Source: Candidatus Liptonbacteria bacterium (GTDB taxonomy: Bacteria > Patescibacteriota > Minisyncoccia > UBA6257 > 2-01-FULL-56-20). Taken from it: a stretch of DNA of 42,058 nt. Below the pieces are notes generated by a model. It had not been told where the DNA came from and ran no database searches. It saw only the letters and a program-made list of their open reading frames with translations. The stretch is taken from positions 1 to 42,058 of the forward strand of contig JAHFLJ010000003.1 of NCBI GenBank assembly GCA_023244935.1, written 5' to 3'. Every line of letters begins with the position of its first letter. Position 1 is the stretch's first letter. Positions 13,827 to 33,567 of this stretch are shown piece by piece. The position numbers and the translations under genes are program-made.

Positions 13827-14414
13827 ATGAACAAATCAGAAAAAGGATTTACGCTTATTGAGCTTTTGGTTGTCTTGGCACTGGTCGCCATTTTGTCGGT
13901 AGTTGTCATCTTGACCTTGAATCCTGCAGAGCTTTTGAAACAGGCTCGTGATTCTAACCGAACTTCCGACCTTTCAACTTTAAAGAGCGCAATTTCGTTG
14001 TTTATGGCTGATGTGAATGTTACCCCAACATCACTCGGAGCAGCTGGAACTTGTTATTATTCATACGTTGCTACTACTGCAACTGTAGGTTGTGGCGGAG
14101 CATTTCCTACTAGTACCACTAATGGAACAACAACTTACGCCGGGGTTAGAAACATTAATGGAACCGGTTGGATTCCAGTGAATTTCAGTGCGATTAGCTC
14201 TGGAGCACCTATCGGACAGCTTCCGGTTGATCCTGTGAATACTTCCGCGTTCTATTATACTTACGGGGTAGGTACATCAAGTAATCAGTTGTTTGAGATT
14301 GATGCGAAAATGGAAAGTACTAAATATAGTACTACTGGCGGATCTGAGTTATTGACTTCTGACGGAGGCAACAACAATGGTTGGTATGAAACCGGAACGA
14401 CACTTTCTCTCTAG
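13827..14414 (+). CDS. Type IV prepilin-like protein
   Basis: KGFTLIELLVVLALVAILSVVVI class III signal sequence with Glu+5. Confidence 0.92.
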   Translation: MNKSEKGFTLIELLVVLALVAILSVVVILTLNPAELLKQARDSNRTSDLSTLKSAISLFMADVNVTPTSLGAAGTCYYSYVATTATVGCGGAFPTSTTNGTTTYAGVRNINGTGWIPVNFSAISSGAPIGQLPVDPVNTSAFYYTYGVGTSSNQLFEIDAKMESTKYSTTGGSELLTSDGGNNNGWYETGTTLSL

Positions 14415-14432
14415 TTTAAGAGATAAAAACAA

Positions 14433-14467
14433 AAAAATTCCTTCCAATCTGGAGGGGATTTTTTTAT
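14433..14467 (+). terminator. Intrinsic terminator after the pilin gene
   Basis: AAAAATTCCTTCC-aatct-GGAGGGGATTTTT followed by Ts. Confidence 0.85.
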
Positions 14468-14477
14468 GGGAAAACTT

Positions 14478-14606
14478 ATGACTTATTACTAATCACTTAT
14501 AACTTAAAATTTAACCGGTAAAAACAGGAATTTTTGGGTTAGGTTATTAGTCATTAGTTATTAGTGATAAGTGGCTCGCATTGGTGATAAGTCATTGCTT
14601 ACTTTT
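14478..14606. repeat. Dispersed AT-rich inverted-repeat element
   Basis: ACTTATGACTTATTACTAATCACTTATAACTT...GGTTATTAGTCATTAGTTATTAGTGATAAGT; imperfect dyad with ~7-nt internal periodicity. Confidence 0.7.
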
Positions 14607-14633
14607 TGTTAAAATTTGTTATACTGGTTATAG

Positions 14634-16349
14634 ATGGGACTTCCAATACCGGCAAATCAATTGAAAGGGAAACTTTTAACGGAAGGGTTAATAACTCCGG
14701 AAAAGTTTGATGCGCTCGAACAAGAGGCCGGTTTAAAAAATCAAAGTTTATTGGACATCCTGGTGTCCGAACACGTTGCCGATAAAAATTATTTAAATCG
14801 ACTCATCGCTGATTTTTTGGGCGTTGAGATTGTCAATTTCAATACAACCCCAATCGACCCGGAAGTTGTTAAACTGATTCCGGAAGAAGTCTCTCGACAG
14901 AGGGAGATTTTGGTTTTTAGTAGAGGCGCGGATGGTTCTTTGAACGTCGCCATGGCCGACCCGAGTGATCTTTCCACAATTACATATTTATCTCAACACC
15001 TTGGAACTAAAATTTCGGTATTTCTGGCCGATCAGCAGGATTTGAATCGCGGCTATACTGTTTACGGTTCGCAGATGACCAGCGACTTCAAGGCAATTAT
15101 CGAAAAAAATATTCAAGATTCTATCCGCGCCCAAACTAAAGGCGGGCAGAAGGAAGAGGCCGAACTTCCAATTGTCGCGGTTGTGGATAACATCATGTCC
15201 TACGCGGTATCCCTGCGCGCCTCGGATGTGCACATTGAGATAATGGAGGACGTGACCATTGTGCGTTATCGCATTGACGGAATCCTTTACGAGATAATGC
15301 GTATCCCTAAATTAGTGCACACCGCGATTGTTGCCCGTATTAAAATTTTATCCGGACTTAAGCTCGACGAGCACTACGAACCGCAAGACGGTCGTTTTAG
15401 ACATTCTGCCGCGAATCAAATGGTGGATGTTCGTGTTTCTATTCTGCCGACTTTCTATGGCGAAAAAATGGTTATGCGCTTGCTCGAAGCTTCCCAGAAA
15501 CCGCTATCTCTTGAGGAGCTGGGGTTTTTGCCGGAAGCCGCTAAAACAATTCGGGATAATTTGAAAAAAACTTACGGAATGATTCTGGCGGCCGGTCCTA
15601 CCGGTGCCGGTAAAACTACAACATTGTACGCGCTTATGAATATTTTGAATAAGCCAAACGTAAATATCGTTACAATTGAGGATCCAATCGAATATAACAT
15701 GCGTTATGTTAATCAAGCGCAGGTAAATGCGCGCGCCGGGGTTACTTTTGCTTCCGGTTTGCGTGCGATTTTGCGACAAGATCCGAACATTATTATGGTC
15801 GGGGAAATCCGCGATAAAGAAACCGCAAACATTGCGGTTCAGTCTGCCTTAACCGGTCACTTATTGCTTTCTTCTATTCACACCAACGATGCCCCAACGA
15901 CTATCCCACGTCTTTTTGATTTGGATGTCCCGCCATTTTTAGTAGGTTCGGTTTTGAACTTGGTTATTGCCCAGCGTCTTGTGCGTCAAGCCTGTAAAAA
16001 TTGTATTTATTCCTACGAGCCGGATGAAGACACTAAGGCCATTGTAAAAAAACAGGTAGAGGAGCTGAATATTCGAGTTCGCGGATATACGCTTCCTAAG
16101 TTATTATATAAAGGCAAGGGATGTAATATTTGTAATAACACCGGATATCGGGGACGACTTGGTATTTATGAAGTTTTTGAGGTAACCGAGAATATTCGAA
16201 AAATACTTGTGTCTCCACAGTTTGATCTGGACGCGCTTCGCGCCAAGGCCGAAGAAGAGGGGATGACGACTATGTTCGAGGACGGATTAAGAAAAGCCGA
16301 GCTGGGGATGACCACAATCGAAGAAGTTTTGAGAGTTATCCGAGAATAG
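14634..16349 (+). CDS. Type IV pilus/type II secretion assembly ATPase (PilB/GspE)
   Basis: Walker A AAGPTGAGKTTTLYALM, IVTIEDPIEY, RQDPNIIMVGEIRDKETA, tetracysteine CKNC...CNICNNTGYRGR. Confidence 0.95.
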   Translation: MGLPIPANQLKGKLLTEGLITPEKFDALEQEAGLKNQSLLDILVSEHVADKNYLNRLIADFLGVEIVNFNTTPIDPEVVKLIPEEVSRQREILVFSRGADGSLNVAMADPSDLSTITYLSQHLGTKISVFLADQQDLNRGYTVYGSQMTSDFKAIIEKNIQDSIRAQTKGGQKEEAELPIVAVVDNIMSYAVSLRASDVHIEIMEDVTIVRYRIDGILYEIMRIPKLVHTAIVARIKILSGLKLDEHYEPQDGRFRHSAANQMVDVRVSILPTFYGEKMVMRLLEASQKPLSLEELGFLPEAAKTIRDNLKKTYGMILAAGPTGAGKTTTLYALMNILNKPNVNIVTIEDPIEYNMRYVNQAQVNARAGVTFASGLRAILRQDPNIIMVGEIRDKETANIAVQSALTGHLLLSSIHTNDAPTTIPRLFDLDVPPFLVGSVLNLVIAQRLVRQACKNCIYSYEPDEDTKAIVKKQVEELNIRVRGYTLPKLLYKGKGCNICNNTGYRGRLGIYEVFEVTENIRKILVSPQFDLDALRAKAEEEGMTTMFEDGLRKAELGMTTIEEVLRVIRE

Positions 16350-16490
16350 TTTTGTAATCGAATCTACCGAGACGTTCGCTCGGTCTGACGGAAATAAAGA
16401 AAATGAGGACAAGCAACAAATTTAAAAACAAGTCTCAAATAAAAATTACATGTGCTCGGGTATTTAAGATAGCTAAAATTAAAAACTAGC

Positions 16491-17693
16491 ATGTTATACC
16501 ATTACGTCGCATCCGACGCGGCCGGAAAATTGTATGAATCCGATATCGACGCCCAAAATCTTGATGGTGTATTAAAAAATCTTTCGACCAAGGGACTGCG
16601 TCCGATAAATATTCAATCACTAAAGGACGCTTCCGGAATAATTATATTTAAAGGGAGTATAAATCTGACCGATAAGATATTTTTAACCAAATATTTATCT
16701 TTGATGTTAAAAGTTGGTACTGACCTCCTTTCGGCAATTAATATTTTAATCGCCGATTTTGAAAAACCGGTTATGCGCTCTTTACTTATTGAGGTGCGCG
16801 AAAATTTGATGCGCGGACAGGCATTCAATCAGGTTTTTTCCAGGTATCCCAAGTATTTTTCACCGGTTTTTGTAAATATGGTTAAAGCGGCGGAAGCCTC
16901 CGGTAATCTACAACAAACCTTCGAGGATCTTAGTATCTCTCTCCAGCGGGACGGTGAACTTCAAAGTAGAGTTCGCGGAGCTTTAATCTATCCGATAATT
17001 ATTTTAGTGGCTTCGGTCTCCGTGTTTGTTTTTCTTTCAACTTTTGCGATTCCAAAAATCTCCGCGGTTTTCCGAGAAGGAGGTATTAAAGTTCCCGGAT
17101 TCTCCAAAATAGTTTTTGCGGTAGGAGACTTTATTAACACCAATATTATTTCACTGGGCATAGGGGTTTTTATTTTCGCTTTAGCTTTTTGGATATTTTT
17201 CTTTAAAACACAAGTCGGGCGTCAAATTATGGATAATTTTCTTTCCAATCTACCGGTCGTCAGAAATCTATACAGGGATATTGCCATACAACGTTTTGCT
17301 TCTACCTTCAGTTCGCTGATGAAAGCCGGTTTGCCGATTATCCAAGCCACACATATTACCGCAGACGTAGTTGTGAACAAGCGTTTCAGAGACTCTTTGT
17401 ATCGCATAGCCGATGAAGGGTTGGCAAAAGGAATAACTATTGGTGATGCCTTCAGAAGAGAGCCGGTATTCCCTAGGGTGGTTACAAACCTAATCGCGAT
17501 TTCCGAAAAAGCCGGTCACTTGGAAGAGCTGTTGGATACTCTTGCGGATTTCTATACCTCTAGAATTGATTCCAGCGTCAAAATATTAATCAGTGTTTTG
17601 GAGCCAGTTCTTCTTCTGGGCATGGGAGGCATGGTTGGTTTAATCGCTGTTTCGATTATCGTTCCGATTTATCAGCTTACTTCCACTTTCTAA
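16491..17693 (+). CDS. Type IV pilus/type II secretion inner-membrane platform protein (PilC/GspF)
   Basis: MLKVGTDLLSAINIL, SRYPKYFSPVFVNMVKAAEASGNL, VTNLIAISEKAGHLEELL, MGGMVGLIAVSIIVPIYQL. Confidence 0.93.
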   Translation: MLYHYVASDAAGKLYESDIDAQNLDGVLKNLSTKGLRPINIQSLKDASGIIIFKGSINLTDKIFLTKYLSLMLKVGTDLLSAINILIADFEKPVMRSLLIEVRENLMRGQAFNQVFSRYPKYFSPVFVNMVKAAEASGNLQQTFEDLSISLQRDGELQSRVRGALIYPIIILVASVSVFVFLSTFAIPKISAVFREGGIKVPGFSKIVFAVGDFINTNIISLGIGVFIFALAFWIFFFKTQVGRQIMDNFLSNLPVVRNLYRDIAIQRFASTFSSLMKAGLPIIQATHITADVVVNKRFRDSLYRIADEGLAKGITIGDAFRREPVFPRVVTNLIAISEKAGHLEELLDTLADFYTSRIDSSVKILISVLEPVLLLGMGGMVGLIAVSIIVPIYQLTSTF

Positions 17694-17737
17694 AATTAAA
17701 AAACGTCGATTTGCTTCGCGGGTAAAAATTCCAGCAT

Positions 17738-18235
17738 ATGCGTATAAACATATTTAAAACTAAGAAAAACAAAAGAACCGGATTCACGCTGGTTGAATTG
17801 ATTTTAGTTATTGCCTTAATGGTCGTTATTATTTTAATTTCCGTATTAAGTCTCGGAGGCAGAAAAGGAAAGACCGAATTGGACGGCATTACCAAGCAAA
17901 TCGTTGGACAACTGCGCGAGGCCCAAAGTAAGTCCGCGTCCCAAGTTAATAGCACAACCTGGGGGGTCAGGATTGACAACGCGACCAGCGGAGCATTTTT
18001 TGGAACGTTTAGTAGCTCAACCTATACCACCACAACAAAAACAAGCTATACCCGCCTTCCGAGAAATATCAGCTACGTGACCTCCACATTGCCAGTCGGA
18101 GCTTATCGCGAGATATTTTTTACGCAGATAAGTGGCGCTCCCTCAACCACCACCATTATTTCGCTTCAATTAACCGACACTCCAAATGTTTCCACCACAA
18201 TAAGCGTAGGGTTGGGGGGAGTAATCGGCTACTAA
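17738..18235 (+). CDS. Pseudopilin (GspH/FimT-like)
   Basis: TGFTLVELILVIALMVVIILISVL prepilin signature. Confidence 0.87.
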   Translation: MRINIFKTKKNKRTGFTLVELILVIALMVVIILISVLSLGGRKGKTELDGITKQIVGQLREAQSKSASQVNSTTWGVRIDNATSGAFFGTFSSSTYTTTTKTSYTRLPRNISYVTSTLPVGAYREIFFTQISGAPSTTTIISLQLTDTPNVSTTISVGLGGVIGY

Positions 18236-18270
18236 ACATTGAACTGTTGTGATAAAATAATATCAGGAAG

Positions 18271-19512
18271 ATGATCCTGCCAAGAAAATCAGGCCAGTCT
18301 TTGATAGAAATACTCGTAGCTATAGGTGTCGGGGTTATTATGCTTGTCGGCGCAGTTACCGCGCTGGTTCCGGCAATAAAAAGTTTGTCGGACATAAGCA
18401 GAACCCAAGGTTCAGCCTCAGCGTCTAAGGAACTATTGGATAACGTCAGAATTTTTGCGGAGAGTAATTGGCATAACATAGATACTCTTTCAACCTCCCA
18501 GAAATACTTTTTGAATACCGCAACCTCAACTTTCGCTGTAGCCACCGGAACGGAAACGGTAATCTCCGATGGGATTACTTCCGGATTAGTTGGATATTGG
18601 AAGCTGGATGATAATTTAGGCACATCGGTCATGGATTTTTCAGGCAACGGGAATAGCGGTTCGAAAGCTGGCAACCCAACGGCTACGAGCAGTTGCTGGG
18701 CAGGCGGTTGCTATTTATTCAATGGCGCCGGTGATTATATTGACATCGGCAACAATACAATTCTTGGAAGCAGTGCTTTTACTTTGTCGGCATGGATAAA
18801 CCCCACTGCAATAAATAAATACTCCGCTGCGCTTATGATCGGAAATAGTGCTGCCGGGCAATCGGCATACATCGGAACTATTGCCACGGCCCAGGTCGGC
18901 ACTTCAAACTCAATCGGTGGCGGTTTTTACGGTATAAATTACGGGTCAGGAGTTACATCTGCAAATAAGTGGGTTCATGTCGCTATGACTTTTTCCGGGG
19001 GAGCAGATGGCAGTGCGAACATTTATATTGATGGAGAAAATAAATTAACGGCAACTTCGACTCCAAACCTTGGGTCGGCAACTAGACGAATTGGAAGAAT
19101 CGGGACGGATACTATATATGACTTTCCAGGAAAAATCGATGATGTCCGTATTTATAACCGAGCGCTTGCGCCGGCTGAAATCAATACAATCTATCGCGCA
19201 GATCTTTTTACCAGGAATTTTCAGGTAGCGGATGTTTATAGAGACGAAAACAATTCTGATAAAATAATTACAGGGACAGGGGGAACTTTGGATCCGTCAA
19301 CCAAACGAATTACAATTGAATATGGTTGGCCAGGTAGCCAGCTCAAAACTTTTTCGGCATATTTAACCAGATATAGAAATAAATCTTTTGTTCAGACTAG
19401 TTGGCAAGCCGGCGCAAGTAGCACCTATACTTCGACCACGGCCAATTGGTTTACGACATCAAGCGGAGTTAGTTATTCGACATCAACCGGAATAAGAATT
19501 GAAGGATTATGA
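18271..19512 (+). CDS. Prepilin-like protein with a C-terminal LamG/concanavalin-A-like domain
   Basis: N-terminal SGQSLIEILVAIGVGVIMLVGA; LVGYWKLDDN...SGNGNSG...FTLSAWINP...IGRIGTDTIYDFPGKIDDVRIYNRALAPAEI is typical of LamG-like lectin folds. Confidence 0.85.
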   Translation: MILPRKSGQSLIEILVAIGVGVIMLVGAVTALVPAIKSLSDISRTQGSASASKELLDNVRIFAESNWHNIDTLSTSQKYFLNTATSTFAVATGTETVISDGITSGLVGYWKLDDNLGTSVMDFSGNGNSGSKAGNPTATSSCWAGGCYLFNGAGDYIDIGNNTILGSSAFTLSAWINPTAINKYSAALMIGNSAAGQSAYIGTIATAQVGTSNSIGGGFYGINYGSGVTSANKWVHVAMTFSGGADGSANIYIDGENKLTATSTPNLGSATRRIGRIGTDTIYDFPGKIDDVRIYNRALAPAEINTIYRADLFTRNFQVADVYRDENNSDKIITGTGGTLDPSTKRITIEYGWPGSQLKTFSAYLTRYRNKSFVQTSWQAGASSTYTSTTANWFTTSSGVSYSTSTGIRIEGL

Positions 19513-20399
19513 TAAACAACATTAAAAAATTATGGTATATGTTGCCGATGGGCTTAATTTTAGGGATTGCCTTTTTATTATTCGGCAAGGATTTAAATAT
19601 TTTGAAAATGGCGCGTGCGGCGACTAATATCAGCTCCAACGTTACCGAACACTGGGCCTGGAACGATGTTGTCGGTTGGTTAGATTTTTATAACACGTTG
19701 AATGTAAATGTTAATCCAGTGCAACTTACAGGGTACGCAAGTTCTTCTATTGGGGACGTCTCACTTGATTGCGCGACAACTCGCGCAGGAAATGTTTGCT
19801 CCGGAGCAAATGACAACTACAAAGTAATTAACGACGGCAGTGGATATCTCTCCGGTTGGGCTTGGAATGATAACTACGGCTGGGTTAGTTTCTGTGGAGG
19901 AGGGGGTGCGGATCCTAACTGCCCCGGGAGTACGGCATATCAGGTTTCAATAAATCCGAATACCGGTCTATTCAGCGGTTATGCTTGGAATGATGTTATT
20001 GGTTGGATAAGTTTTAACTGCGCGGACATTGGAGTTTGTGGGACTTCGGATTATAAAGTCTTAACTTCCTGGGTTGCTTCTTCAACAGCCGCAGTTATTG
20101 AGTCGGCAACTTTCGATACCGGAGTCAGTGGCGGAGCGCAAATCAACTCTTTTTATTGGGAGGGTGATCCGGGGACGAATACCGCGGTGTATTTTCAGTT
20201 TGCAATAAGTAATTCTACCAGCGGTCCATGGAATTATTTCGGGAATTACGAAGCGAACGAAGGGTTGCCAAGGACCAAAGTAAATTTTATTTTACATAAT
20301 AATATGCGTTATTTCCGCTATAAAATAACTTTAGTTTCCGACCAAGGGCAACAAAGCACTCCGGTTATTAGAAAGGTGGTGATAGATTGGAGTCCGTAG
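19509..20399 (+). CDS. Secreted protein with AWND..GW repeats
   Basis: Three repeats HWAWNDVVGWLDF, GWAWNDNYGWVSF, GYAWNDVIGWISF; N-terminal hydrophobic segment; ATGA overlap with the upstream gene. Confidence 0.75.
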   Translation: MINNIKKLWYMLPMGLILGIAFLLFGKDLNILKMARAATNISSNVTEHWAWNDVVGWLDFYNTLNVNVNPVQLTGYASSSIGDVSLDCATTRAGNVCSGANDNYKVINDGSGYLSGWAWNDNYGWVSFCGGGGADPNCPGSTAYQVSINPNTGLFSGYAWNDVIGWISFNCADIGVCGTSDYKVLTSWVASSTAAVIESATFDTGVSGGAQINSFYWEGDPGTNTAVYFQFAISNSTSGPWNYFGNYEANEGLPRTKVNFILHNNMRYFRYKITLVSDQGQQSTPVIRKVVIDWSP

Positions 20400-20410
20400 A
20401 CAACAAAATT

Positions 20411-20521
20411 CAACTAATAACTTATGACTTATAATTTTAAACAATCAATAAAAAGCAAAAACAATTCAAAAATGAGTTTGTTTTGTTTTGGTGATGAGTC
20501 ATTAGTGATCAGTGATAAGTC
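20411..20521. repeat. Dispersed AT-rich inverted-repeat element overlapping an ORF start
   Basis: AACTAATAACTTATGACTTATAATTTT ... GATGAGTCATTAGTGATCAGTGATAAGTC. Confidence 0.65.
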
Positions 20522-20942
20522 CGGCGCTTCGCGCCGTGGCCAAGCCGCGTTGTCGCTGGTATTTTTAATCGGGGGAATTGCGCTTTTGGTTTCAGTTACC
20601 ATAGCGGTAATCGCTATCAGTTTTTTGAATTCTACTTTTGCTTTTCAATCCGCAAATCGCGCCTATGCCAATGCCACTTCCGGAGCGCAAGACGCGCTTT
20701 TGAAACTTGCCCGCGATGATTCATTTTCGGATTTAACCGGATATCAAGTTCCTTATGTCATCGGAGGCTGTCTTTCTAATTGTGCTTTTGTCACAGTTAA
20801 CCAGGTTGACCCCAGTAAACAAGTGGAGATTATTTCCACAGCGACAGTTTTCGCTTCTACGCGTAAGATTAAGGTGGTAGTCGCGATAGATCCAAATAAT
20901 GGAGAAGTATCGGTTTCCTCATGGACTAATCTTGAATTGTAA
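20424..20942 (+). CDS. PilX-like pilus-associated membrane protein (start codon uncertain)
   Basis: RRGQAALSLVFLIGGIALLVSVTIAVIAISF prepilin-like segment; in operon; the first ~30 codons are derived from a repeat element. Confidence 0.65.
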   Translation: MTYNFKQSIKSKNNSKMSLFCFGDESLVISDKSGASRRGQAALSLVFLIGGIALLVSVTIAVIAISFLNSTFAFQSANRAYANATSGAQDALLKLARDDSFSDLTGYQVPYVIGGCLSNCAFVTVNQVDPSKQVEIISTATVFASTRKIKVVVAIDPNNGEVSVSSWTNLEL

Positions 20943-28610: not shown

Positions 28611-29897
28611 ATGCGAAAAGCTTTATTTCTTCTGGTAATAGTAACGGTAGCCGGAGTTGCGTTATTTCTTTCTAATACCTCGGTTTTTGTCCCGGAAAAA
28701 GCGGAATTAGCCGGAGCCGGCGCCATCTCCGGAGAATCCGAGAGTAAGTCGACTACCACCTCGTCCACCGACGAGTCAACCGCTACGGCCACATCTACAT
28801 CCATTTCAAATACCGGTAACGGAAAAGTGCCGATATTTGTTGCCGGCGAAAAATTATCTAATCCTCCGGAAGAGGTTAAGGCTGTTTATCTTTCGGGATG
28901 GTCGGCCGGCTCTACGAAGAAAGTTCAAAGCACGATAGATTTAATCAAACGCACCGAGCTTAATGCTGTGGTAGTCGATATTAAGGATTATTCCGGTCTA
29001 GTTTCTTACTACATGGATATTCCGTTGATTAAAGAATCCGGAGCAGACCAGGAGATAAGAATTGCAAACCCCGGGGAGATGCTGAGAAAATTTCATGAGG
29101 CCGGAATTTACGTTATCGGTAGAATTACCGTTTTCCAAGATCCGATACTGGCTAAATATAAATCCGAATGGGCTATGAAGAATAAAACTACCGGCAAGGT
29201 TTGGACCGATAGTAAGGGATTGGCCTGGATGGATCCGGCGGGTTCAGGAACATGGGATTATATAATTTCAATCGCCAAAGACGCCACTGCACGCGGATTT
29301 GACGAGATAAATTTTGATTATATTCGTTTTGCTTCCGATGGAAAACTCTCAAATATCTCCTATCCATATTGGGATGAAGTCACCCCACGTTCAAAAGTCA
29401 TAACTAAGTTTTATGAATATTTAAGGGAAAAACTTTCCGGCATAAAAATTTCCGCGGACCTTTTTGGATTAGCTACGGTTAATAATGATGATCTTGGAAT
29501 CGGTCAGGTTATTCAAGACGCTTATAGGAATTTTGATTATATTGCTCCGATGGTCTATCCATCTCATTACGCCTCCGGGTTTATTGGCTTTAAAAATCCC
29601 GCCGAGCACCCATATGAAGTTATGAAATATTCGTTGGATAGGGCGCTTAGTAAATGGTTGTATGTCGCTGAAGGATCAAGCTCTACACCGGCGATTCCCA
29701 AAGAAAAACTTGGCAAGCTTCGTCCTTGGATTCAAGATTTTAATATGGGTGCAACCTATGACGGGGCAATGATAAGAAAAGAGTTCCAAGCCGTTTACGA
29801 TAGTTTACAGAATTCAACGACCAGCTACACATATTCTGGTTGGATGATTTGGGATGCAAGCAATACATACACAGAGTCAGCTTTAAATAAAGAATAA
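28611..29897 (+). CDS. Putative secreted glycoside hydrolase (DUF4015-like TIM barrel)
   Basis: KAVYLSGWSAGSTKKVQSTIDLIKRTELNAVVVDIKDYSG, GRITVFQDP, FDEINFDYIRFASDG, YIAPMVYPSHY. Confidence 0.83.
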   Translation: MRKALFLLVIVTVAGVALFLSNTSVFVPEKAELAGAGAISGESESKSTTTSSTDESTATATSTSISNTGNGKVPIFVAGEKLSNPPEEVKAVYLSGWSAGSTKKVQSTIDLIKRTELNAVVVDIKDYSGLVSYYMDIPLIKESGADQEIRIANPGEMLRKFHEAGIYVIGRITVFQDPILAKYKSEWAMKNKTTGKVWTDSKGLAWMDPAGSGTWDYIISIAKDATARGFDEINFDYIRFASDGKLSNISYPYWDEVTPRSKVITKFYEYLREKLSGIKISADLFGLATVNNDDLGIGQVIQDAYRNFDYIAPMVYPSHYASGFIGFKNPAEHPYEVMKYSLDRALSKWLYVAEGSSSTPAIPKEKLGKLRPWIQDFNMGATYDGAMIRKEFQAVYDSLQNSTTSYTYSGWMIWDASNTYTESALNKE

Positions 29898-31255
29898 TGT
29901 TAAAAAGACCGGTTCCTTTATATTTAAGTCTTATACTATTTTTTGTATTATTTTCCGGTTTTGTCGCGGGGGTTTTTGTATTCCGAGATAAAATTTACAG
30001 TTACAGCTCGGCGCTTCAAGGAGAAAGGGATTATGAAGCCGGAGACTTTAAATTCGGGACTTGGCCGGAACTTAAAGACCGCAATTTTTTTCAAGAAGTT
30101 GAACGAGGGCTGGTTGAGAGTAAGGCTGATTTTATCGAAGCCGATCTGACAAGCAAGGTTTTGAAAGTATATTTACTGGGAGTTCCGGTAAAGGAGTTTC
30201 CTATACTTGCAATCGGAAAAAAAGGTTCATGGTGGGAGACCCCTGCGGGTCTTTATCGAATTGACGTTAAAGAAAAGAGCCACTTTTCAAGTTTCGGGGA
30301 GGTTTATCAGCCATGGAGCATGTCTTTCCAGGGGAACTTTTTTATACACGGCTGGCCGTATTATCCTGACGGCACAGAGGTTGTTTCGACATATTCCGGC
30401 GGATGCATTCGTTTAAATACCGAAGACGCCAAACAGGTTTATGAACTATCTTCTCGTGGCATGCCGGTTTTGGTATATGAGAGCGGTTTTGAGCAAGATA
30501 GTTTCTCGTATAAATATAATATTCCGGATATATCGGCGACAAACTATTTGGCCGCCGACTTAAAGAGTAACTATGTTTTTCTAAAAAAAGACTCGGCGCG
30601 GCAGATGCCGGTGGCATCCCTCACTAAATTGCTTACCGCGCTTACGGTCAGCGAATATTTGAATTTGGAAAATATGTTGACGGTGCGAGATTCGGATATC
30701 GCCTCGACTTCGGTCCCTCGATTAAAGAGTGGCGAGACGATTAAAGCTATGGATTTATTTTATCCGCTACTGATGGAATCCTCCAACGAAGCCGCGCTTT
30801 TATTGTCGCGCGTCGTAGGTAATGATAGGTTTATGGATTTGTTGAATTCCAAAGCACTCGCGCTCGGTATGGACGGCTCAAAATTCTCCGACCCGACGGG
30901 AGTCTCTTCGGAAAACGTAGCTTCGGCGGAAAATATTTTTAGGCTTTCCAAATTTTTATACAATAATAAAAGTTTTGTATTAAAAGTTTCCGCGACCGCT
31001 CCGGATTATGTCGGCATACCAAAAAGGTTTAAAAAAATAAGTAATTTTAATTTAATCGATGGAATTGACGGTTTCTTTAGTGGTAAAGTAGGCAAGAGCA
31101 GTTCGGCAGGGGAGACGATGGTCTCAATATTCGAGTTCAAATTTAATGAAGAAGTTCGGCCGGTGGCGATTATCGTGCTAAATTCTACGGATTCTAAAGC
31201 GGATACTCTAAAGATTGCGACTTACATAAAAAATAGCTATGTCTCGGCAAATTAA
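29897..31255 (+). CDS. Apparent fusion: L,D-transpeptidase (YkuD) + D-Ala-D-Ala carboxypeptidase (PBP5-like)
   Basis: YkuD motif HGWPYYPDGTEVVSTYSGGCIRLNTEDA, then ASLTKLLTALTV (SxxK), ESSNEAA (SxN), GKVGKSS in the KTG position. Confidence 0.85.
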   Translation: MLKRPVPLYLSLILFFVLFSGFVAGVFVFRDKIYSYSSALQGERDYEAGDFKFGTWPELKDRNFFQEVERGLVESKADFIEADLTSKVLKVYLLGVPVKEFPILAIGKKGSWWETPAGLYRIDVKEKSHFSSFGEVYQPWSMSFQGNFFIHGWPYYPDGTEVVSTYSGGCIRLNTEDAKQVYELSSRGMPVLVYESGFEQDSFSYKYNIPDISATNYLAADLKSNYVFLKKDSARQMPVASLTKLLTALTVSEYLNLENMLTVRDSDIASTSVPRLKSGETIKAMDLFYPLLMESSNEAALLLSRVVGNDRFMDLLNSKALALGMDGSKFSDPTGVSSENVASAENIFRLSKFLYNNKSFVLKVSATAPDYVGIPKRFKKISNFNLIDGIDGFFSGKVGKSSSAGETMVSIFEFKFNEEVRPVAIIVLNSTDSKADTLKIATYIKNSYVSAN

Positions 31256-31270
31256 GTATTATTAGAATAT

Positions 31271-31990
31271 ATGGCCTACGAAGTTAAATTATCTAAATTT
31301 CAGGGACCGCTGGAAAAATTACTGGAGCTTATCGAAGATAAAAAGCTTCAGATTAATGAAATTAGTTTAGCCGTGGTTACTAATGACTTTCTTAAATATC
31401 TCGAGGAATCCAAACCGGATTATGGAGTTTTGGCGGATTTTGTTTCAATAGCCAGCCGTCTAATTTTAGTTAAATCAAAATCGCTTCTTCCGGGAATGGA
31501 GTTGACCGAAGAGGAAGAGGTGGATATTAAAGACCTTGCTCAGCGATTGGAGCTCTATAAAGAGTTTAAAGTGGCCCGTGGACATTTTGAAGCTTTGTGG
31601 AAATCCAAAGAATCTTCGTATTCTCGGGTTTATATGGGGTCCCTCGATTCGGTTAAGGTCTTCTACCCGGGAAGCAAAGTCACTAAGGAGAATCTTCTGG
31701 AATCGACTCAAAGAATCTTTGAAAGTCTGGAAAAAATATCCAAAGAGACGGAAACAATCAAGGAAAAGATTGTTTCCCTGGAAGATAAAATTAAGGAGGT
31801 TGTTGCCAGAGTTAAAGACCTCGGGGAGACAAGTCTAAATAAACTCTCGGAGACAAAAACTAAGGCTGAAATCGTAGTAATTTTTTTGGCGATTCTGCAT
31901 TTGGCCAGAGAGCAACTTATCCATTTGGAGCAAGAGAGTCATTTTTCTGATATAATGATAAAACATCAAGGCGCGCAGGCGACTAATTAG
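31271..31990 (+). CDS. scpA: Segregation and condensation protein A
   Basis: KLSKFQGPLEKLLELIEDKKLQINEISLAVVTNDFLKYLE; adjacent scpB. Confidence 0.93.
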   Translation: MAYEVKLSKFQGPLEKLLELIEDKKLQINEISLAVVTNDFLKYLEESKPDYGVLADFVSIASRLILVKSKSLLPGMELTEEEEVDIKDLAQRLELYKEFKVARGHFEALWKSKESSYSRVYMGSLDSVKVFYPGSKVTKENLLESTQRIFESLEKISKETETIKEKIVSLEDKIKEVVARVKDLGETSLNKLSETKTKAEIVVIFLAILHLAREQLIHLEQESHFSDIMIKHQGAQATN

Positions 31991-31997
31991 TTTATAT

Positions 31998-32567
31998 ATG
32001 AACGAAGAAGATAAAAACAAAAAATTATCCGCGCTAGAAGCATTGCTTTTTATCCATGGCGAGCCGATTTCGATTTCTAAAATTTCGTCCGGGCTTGGGT
32101 TAGAGTTAAGCGAGGCGGAAGAACTGGTCAATATATTTTCGGAATCGCTCATGGTAGAGAGCAGAGGACTAAATATAGTAAAAATTGGGGATCGAGTTCA
32201 ATTAGCAACCAAGCCGGAAATCAACCCGGCTTTGGAGAATTTTGTTAAAAGCGAGTTAAGCGAAGAACTTACACCGGCGAGCTTAGAGGTTCTTTCGCTA
32301 GTTTCTTATTTGGGACCGATATCCAGAAGCAAAATAGAATATCTGCGTGGCGTAAACTCAAGTTTCACGTTAAGATCTCTTTTGATGCGAGGGCTGGTTG
32401 ATAGGATTCCCGACCCAAATAGCTCCATAGCTTATCTTTATCGACCGACGTTTGAGCTTCTGAAGCATCTCGGTTTAACTTCGCCGGAGGAAATGCCCGA
32501 ATATGAAAAGTTTCGTGATTTGTTGGTCAATGGACCAATCTCTATCCCAACTCCACCAAGCACTTAA
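31998..32567 (+). CDS. scpB: Segregation and condensation protein B
   Basis: LEALLFIHGEPISISKIS and LSLVSYLGPISRSKIEYLRGVNSSFTLRSLLMRGLV. Confidence 0.93.
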   Translation: MNEEDKNKKLSALEALLFIHGEPISISKISSGLGLELSEAEELVNIFSESLMVESRGLNIVKIGDRVQLATKPEINPALENFVKSELSEELTPASLEVLSLVSYLGPISRSKIEYLRGVNSSFTLRSLLMRGLVDRIPDPNSSIAYLYRPTFELLKHLGLTSPEEMPEYEKFRDLLVNGPISIPTPPST

Positions 32568-32568
32568 A

Positions 32569-33567
32569 ATGAATTTTTTTTCTAAATACAATTTACAAAT
32601 ACTTGTTGTTCTTGCCGTCGCGGTTATTTTTGTTTTCGGTCCAAAAGGATTCGCGGAGAAAAAACAAGTTGCCAGCGTCGAATCGGTTTTTGTCGATAAA
32701 ACTGTCTTGTCGAATACCGATGCCGTCGCGGTTGGAGAGAATATGCCAATTTTTGAGCTGAAAAACGGAGAGAATTCTTCTTTGGGCGCAGGAGCGTATT
32801 TACCATCCAAAATTTTTACCGAGATCCAGAACAATCCGAGACTTGAAACGGAAGTTCCTAATGTATTAGTCGCCGATCTTATGACCTCCGAAAAATATTT
32901 CGAAAAAAATATAAATAAACGATGGCCAATCGCCTCGCTTACGAAGTTAATGACCGGATATATTGCTTTTGAAAAGTTGAATATGGCCGACACGGTTATT
33001 TTGAAAAAAGAAGACATAGACATTAACGAATCCGAAATTTTTTCTGAAGGTGACAGTTATTCCGTAAAGGATTTGGTTCGGGTGATGTTAATATCCTCTC
33101 GGAATACGGCCGCAAACGCGCTTGCAAATTATTTTGGAAGATCCGCCTTCCTTGAGCTTATGAATAGTAATGCCAAAGAGTGGGGGATGAGTGATACTAA
33201 TTTTGAAGACCCAAGCGGGCTCTCCGTCGCCAATCAATCAACCGCCATGGACCTGCTGAAGTTGTCGCAGGTTATAACTAAAGATTATCCGGACATTTGG
33301 AAGATCACTGAAAATACCAAGGTCTCCATAAAAGAACTGACGACCAAGAGAATATTAACTTCCAATAGCACTAATCAATTTACGGAGAGGAGCGATTTCT
33401 TTGGAGGCAAAACCGGATACATACCCGCCTCCGATGGCAATTTACTTTCTGTCTTCTTGTATCAAAAGCGGACAATTGTTATTATTACGTTAGGAAGCCA
33501 AGATCGATTTGGCGATACAGAAAAAATATTTAACTGGTTTATAAATGGTTTTAGAACAAGCAATTAG
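32569..33567 (+). CDS. D-alanyl-D-alanine carboxypeptidase (PBP5/DacA family)
   Basis: PIASLTKLMTGYIAF, ISSRNTAANALA, GGKTGYIPASDGNLL; ATG at 32569 gives a proper membrane anchor, the track start at 32503 lies inside scpB. Confidence 0.92.
   Translation: MNFFSKYNLQILVVLAVAVIFVFGPKGFAEKKQVASVESVFVDKTVLSNTDAVAVGENMPIFELKNGENSSLGAGAYLPSKIFTEIQNNPRLETEVPNVLVADLMTSEKYFEKNINKRWPIASLTKLMTGYIAFEKLNMADTVILKKEDIDINESEIFSEGDSYSVKDLVRVMLISSRNTAANALANYFGRSAFLELMNSNAKEWGMSDTNFEDPSGLSVANQSTAMDLLKLSQVITKDYPDIWKITENTKVSIKELTTKRILTSNSTNQFTERSDFFGGKTGYIPASDGNLLSVFLYQKRTIVIITLGSQDRFGDTEKIFNWFINGFRTSN

Follow-up and report, generated by a model that had tools for sequence, protein, structure and literature searches.

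L,D-Transpeptidases of Escherichia coli rely on D,D-carboxypeptidases for their tetrapeptide donors (PMC5089857, PMC6428754): YcbB requires PBP5 for these donors (PMC5089857) and binds it weakly, at approximately 2 micromolar (PMC6478713), and LdtD cooperates with PBP6a (PMC6428754). Enzymes of the YkuD/ErfK type, including E. coli YcbB/LdtD, Mycobacterium LdtMt5, and Bacillus subtilis YkuD, have a common catalytic fold, an H-G-X17-C motif, and an envelope location. The low-molecular-mass penicillin-binding proteins (PBPs) of the S11 type, such as E. coli PBP5/PBP6, B. subtilis DacB, and PBP7, likewise have a common fold, with SxxK, SxN, and a third motif of the Lys-x-Gly form. We found no description of an S11-YkuD fusion in the literature. 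Little is known about wall building in the ultra-small Paceibacteria, and a literature search for Paceibacteria transpeptidases yielded no study.

The window analyzed here, 42,058 nucleotides of a Candidatus Liptonbacteria contig (JAHFLJ010000003.1), contained one open reading frame that encoded both kinds of domain:
29897..31255, + strand: YkuD-S11 fusion gene, 452 amino acids, a single ORF without an internal stop
29918..29980, + strand: N-terminal membrane-anchor helix of predicted orientation, residues 8–28, hydrophobic helix in the AlphaFold2 model
30131..30475, + strand: YkuD L,D-transpeptidase catalytic domain, residues 79–193 (PF03734)
30347..30349, + strand: His151, catalytic His of H-G-X17-C
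30404..30406, + strand: Cys170, nucleophile in S-G-G-C-I-R
30479..30520, + strand: flexible linker between YkuD and S11, residues 195–208 (pLDDT <50 at residues 200–206)
30521..31243, + strand: Peptidase S11 (PBP5-like) domain, residues 209–449 (PF00768; sequence and fold matches in the PDB)

The 452-residue product consisted of a membrane helix, a YkuD domain with its His/Cys pair intact, and a peptidase S11 domain. The presence of YkuD and S11 in one chain was confirmed, and the motifs that the initial annotation had read (HGWPYYPDG...SGGCIRLN, SLTK, SSN, and KVG) were all as described. Pfam YkuD (PF03734) covered residues 79–193 (E = 8.5e-16; 59.3 bits against a cut-off of 23.4), and Peptidase_S11 (PF00768) covered residues 209–410 (E = 4.6e-22; 79.1 bits against a cut-off of 27.6). 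In an AlphaFold2 model built from 89 fusion sequences (mean pLDDT 90.3), both domains were well ordered and of high confidence, and the top fold matches of the model in a Foldseek search of the PDB were S11 D,D-carboxypeptidases; the structure prediction called for in the initial annotation agreed with its domain assignment. The linker was of low confidence at residues 200–206 and the pTM was only 0.63, so that the arrangement of the two domains is tentative and a rigid channel for substrate between the active sites was not predicted.

An assembly error or a frameshift joining two genes, an objection already raised in the initial annotation, was rejected as the origin of the chain. The identical fusion, within a single frame, was present in over 100 genomes, which excluded both chance and assembly error; no observation spoke for such an error, and we regard its probability as negligible.

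The fusion was both recurrent and conserved among relatives, and its distribution was among the checks listed in the initial annotation. A protein search found it in approximately 11 of the 38 family genomes, and a profile made from eleven fusions (A1) detected it in 15 family groups of the order (approximately 54 of 244 genomes) and in 37 of 384 genomes of a class-wide sample. YkuD domains of any kind were encoded by 111 of 239 genomes in the order, which makes the fusion one of the main YkuD forms there. In a phylum-wide draw of 380 genomes, no fusion was found outside the class, and all carriers belonged to the same class. A scan of GTDB contigs gave 80 loci, every one encoding YkuD and S11 in one ORF, with search patterns that favor close relatives and do not prove absence beyond the class; the named organisms among these loci were Paceibacteria/Parcubacteria (Colwell-, Lipton-, Wolfe-, Kaiser-, and Taylorbacteria, and others). 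Triple fusions of YkuD, S11, and PGA_cap, a bacterial capsule synthesis protein domain, were also observed in other orders of the class (L149, L150, and L157), and L154, L161, and L163 were candidates for the same arrangement by length.

The YkuD half was the better conserved of the two, with a mean column identity of 0.72 in the fusion alignment vs 0.56 for S11, and the fusion was the sole YkuD in its 712-kb genome. L,D-Transpeptidase domains carry the motif H(S/G/D)X14-19C (PMC4599014), and the window protein has His151-Gly152-X17-Cys170, in agreement with this form. The histidine was found in 113 of 113 distinct fusions. The cysteine was present in 81 of 81 sequences of the first fusion set; in the wider set of 113 it was absent in three and lay in a degenerate motif in one, leaving the YkuD catalytic residues intact in 109. 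The fusion profile matched YkuD-type PDB chains. Compared with YcbB/LdtD, LdtMt5, and B. subtilis YkuD, the fusion ends in an S11 domain where they have accessory domains, and it has SGGC around the cysteine. Over the YkuD region the profile also matched PDB 4xxt, which by its title is a predicted Zn-dependent amidase/peptidase (cell wall hydrolase/DD-carboxypeptidase) fused to a further domain; the title implies a carboxypeptidase-like domain and an L,D-transpeptidase-matching domain in a single chain. Judged by title, 4xxt is a precedent for a carboxypeptidase paired with an ErfK-type domain, although its partner is a zinc peptidase whereas that of the fusion is a serine S11 enzyme. Helicobacter pylori Csd6 is also a multi-domain enzyme of the YkuD fold; however, Csd6 and Campylobacter jejuni Pgp2 act only as L,D-carboxypeptidases, and Csd6 has an NTF2-like domain as its partner (PMC4599014).

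The S11 domain was aligned with PBP5 of E. coli MG1655, which placed its motifs as follows:
30617..30628, + strand: motif 1, SLTK (Ser241, Lys244), aligned with PBP5 Ser44/Lys47
30779..30787, + strand: motif 2, SSN (residues 295–297), aligned with PBP5 Ser110/Asn112
31085..31093, + strand: motif 3, KVG (residues 397–399), with Val398 in place of PBP5 Thr214
31193..31195, + strand: Ser433, at the aligned position of PBP5 Arg248, the substrate-carboxylate Arg

The equivalents of PBP5 Ser44, Lys47, Ser110, Asn112, Lys213, and Gly215 were kept, whereas Thr214, His216, and Arg248 corresponded to Val398, Lys400, and Ser433, the last of these across a gapped stretch of the alignment. In PBP5, the carboxylate of the ligand is held by Arg248, and His216 is able to shift toward it as well (PMC4979060). 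The rule for the third motif of PBP-fold enzymes is K/H-T/S-G, with GIG of a dimer hydrolase, WGG of a lovastatin esterase, and KAG of an inactive beta-lactamase as exceptions in the table of PMC12073871. The window S11 fits the SxxK and SxN motifs but departs from this rule with KVG, and it has no Arg at the gapped Arg248 position. The protein combines a complete YkuD site with an S11 domain in which the nucleophile is complete and the third motif and the Arg are changed.

The change in the third motif was not confined to this protein. The third-motif triad of 117 fusions was KVG in 41, KIG in 19, KNG in 13, KTG in 11, KSG in seven, KAG in five, KMG in three, and another form in two; the second residue was V, I, M, or N in 76 of the 117, whereas 33 of 35 standalone S11 homologues had KTG. 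An Arg at the Arg248 position was present in 96% of standalone S11 proteins vs 20% of K[VIM]G fusions. Compared with PBP5/PBP6, DacB, and PBP7, the S11 domain of the fusions thus has Val, Ile, Met, or Asn for the Thr of KTG, has mostly lost Arg248, and sits behind a YkuD domain. The SxxK, SxN, and motif-3 Lys were kept in 63 of 63 K[VIM]G fusions, with Ser241, Lys244, and Asn297 never lost; this class required intact SxxK and SxN by definition, yet no K[VIM]G triad occurred without them. Ala240, Asp332, and Asn385, in columns of the active-site region, were also present in 63 of 63. As the Thr214 and Arg248 positions are altered and the catalytic Ser, Lys, SxN, and Lys are retained, the pocket for the free C-terminal carboxylate has changed with the serine chemistry kept, and the S11 half, usually without the residues that grip the normal substrate, is probably repurposed and not a plain trimming enzyme. 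The K[VIM]G sequences lay mostly inside one clade of 84 fusions in a FastTree phylogeny whose deep branching is provisional. As a point against an altered S11 function, PBP-fold enzymes might tolerate Val at the second position of motif 3, and two fusions within this clade carry KTG (L068 and L126).

We then compared selection on the two domains. In sister pairs, dN/dS was approximately 0.03–0.1 for YkuD, 0.06–0.13 for most K[VI]G S11 domains, and 0.2 for dead S11 domains, estimates that are limited by saturation of dS in many pairs. Local pseudogenization of S11 in this genome was rejected, since K[VIM]G extends across the clade and is under purifying selection, and KVG is not local decay. 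The initial annotation had named loss of catalytic residues in either domain across homologues as a refutation, and such loss was found for YkuD in a few fusions and for S11 in a minority: by motifs, 16 of 117 lacked at least one of SxxK, SxN, and the motif-3 Lys and so no longer had an S11 active site, although YkuD was intact in nearly all of them. The S11/YkuD log-identity ratio climbed in steps, being 1.3 for K[TSA]G, 1.8 for K[VIM]G, and 2.8 for dead S11 domains, the last differing from K[VIM]G at p = 0.002. In the L172/L173 pair, where the YkuD Cys is lost, the pattern of dN/dS was reversed (YkuD 0.255 vs S11 0.133). One genome (G436) had two fusion paralogues with complementary losses: L167 has Ser for the YkuD Cys and a complete S11 with KTG, and L169 has a complete YkuD and an S11 without its motifs. 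Such losses are expected of a division of labor after duplication, which suggests that YkuD and S11 can work apart.

The lineages that lost S11 catalytic residues with YkuD intact and the fold still recognizable, together with the faster evolution of S11 in the clade of the window protein, would suit a non-catalytic peptidoglycan-binding module throughout the clade, similar in role to the accessory modules with which other L,D-transpeptidases bind; such peptidoglycan-binding modules are important to YcbB in vivo (PMC6478713). We consider this doubtful, because a pure binder should lose its nucleophile more often than the invariant Ser241, Lys244, and Asn297 of the K[VIM]G fusions indicate.

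The genes flanking the fusion were as follows:
28611..29897, + strand: upstream DUF4015 (glycosyl-hydrolase-like) gene (PF13200, E = 3.7e-93), whose stop overlaps the start of the fusion by one base
31271..32567, + strand: scpA and scpB (PF02616, PF04079), separating the fusion from the standalone S11
32503..33567, + strand: standalone S11 D,D-carboxypeptidase with canonical KTG, the second of two S11 proteins in the genome

The carboxypeptidase with KTG reported downstream in the initial annotation was thus found, and it was followed by a glycosyl transferase family 4 (MraY-like) gene. This gene order was repeated in approximately 10 relatives and not in most, and a DUF4015 gene lay within 4.5 kb of the fusion in 18 of 117 loci. 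A conserved operon was rejected as functional evidence, and the neighborhood is not essential, since the flanking genes are present at only a minority of fusion loci. The genome also encodes three transpeptidase-domain PBPs, and no VanY was found in it. In six other genomes (G080, G117, G125, G127, G157, and G268) the fusion was the only S11 detected and VanY was also absent, which argues against a dispensable S11 in the fusion; incomplete assemblies could explain the pattern, as sister species of some of these genomes have a standalone S11 and contigs may be missing.

These genomes count in favor of a bifunctional relay, in which S11 would be a working D,D-carboxypeptidase that hands tetrapeptides to YkuD. 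The cooperation of E. coli L,D-transpeptidases with PBP5 or PBP6a and the Ser, Lys, SSN, and motif-3 Lys retained in the K[VIM]G clade are consistent with it, as are fusions of other orders with KTG/KSG, full S11 motifs, and an intact YkuD (e.g., L153, L156, L157, L161, and L163). However, the Thr hydroxyl and usually the carboxylate-binding Arg are gone in the clade of the window protein, the S11 site is wholly lost in 16 fusions, and the linker between the domains is flexible, so that we regard a relay as unlikely. Of the initial proposal that the fusion channels substrate, the pairing of an L,D-transpeptidase with a D,D-carboxypeptidase stood as biochemically sensible, but an ordinary carboxypeptidase activity of S11 was unsupported, with KVG clade-wide and the Arg lost. 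By analogy with the known pairs, a covalent transpeptidase-carboxypeptidase pairing is plausible, and the K[TS]G fusions found in other orders may be cases of it.

From the architecture, distribution, residue changes, and selection pattern read in these sequences, we favor, as probable, a membrane-anchored L,D-transpeptidase with an S11 module of altered specificity or stem binding, next to a KTG enzyme that would act as the carboxypeptidase. The protein would be a two-domain peptidoglycan enzyme of predicted membrane topology, with YkuD as its conserved engine, a putative L,D-transpeptidase (or L,D-carboxypeptidase) that would attack stem tetrapeptides via Cys170. The S11 domain derives from a D,D-carboxypeptidase ancestor and, in the clade of the window protein, has retained the acylation machinery (Ser241, Lys244, SSN, and Lys397) and lost the hydroxyl and usually the Arg with which the free C-terminal carboxylate of D-Ala-D-Ala is held. 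The domain most likely has an altered specificity, as a slow or selective peptidase or an endopeptidase, or it binds stem peptides and thereby places strands in position for YkuD. The neighboring KTG enzyme (32503–33567) probably carries out ordinary D,D-carboxypeptidation and would supply the tetrapeptides in a division of labor.

More speculatively, and with rather low probability, S11 could be a serine enzyme that transfers acyl groups and has been adapted to stems whose terminal carboxylate is not free (donors that are amidated or were cross-linked beforehand), cutting or loading strands directly for the attached YkuD; the protein would then edit cross-links on its own in Paceibacteria, and would have been reduced more than once to a single active domain. 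The fusion family unites domains for both steps of L,D-cross-linking within a single chain, and because either active site has been re-tuned or lost naturally and repeatedly, the cooperation of the domains is testable across natural variants.

Two other regions of the window were noted. Positions 719–2511 form 1.8 kb without genes, with a core GC of approximately 55% and two perfect TTGACA-16-TATAAT promoter matches (839–866 and 1818–1845), each followed by a long structured-looking stretch and a terminator-like hairpin (1787–1806 and 2414–2431). The two stretches have repeats in common at 76–77% identity, Rfam gave no match to the region even at E 1, and a DNA search of 149 other genomes of the order gave no full-length relative; these are possibly two related structured RNAs of no known family. 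Positions 13827–20942 contain a type IV pilus-like gene run, with prepilin-like ORFs, a PilB-like ATPase, and a PilC-like membrane protein, as judged from the translations alone.
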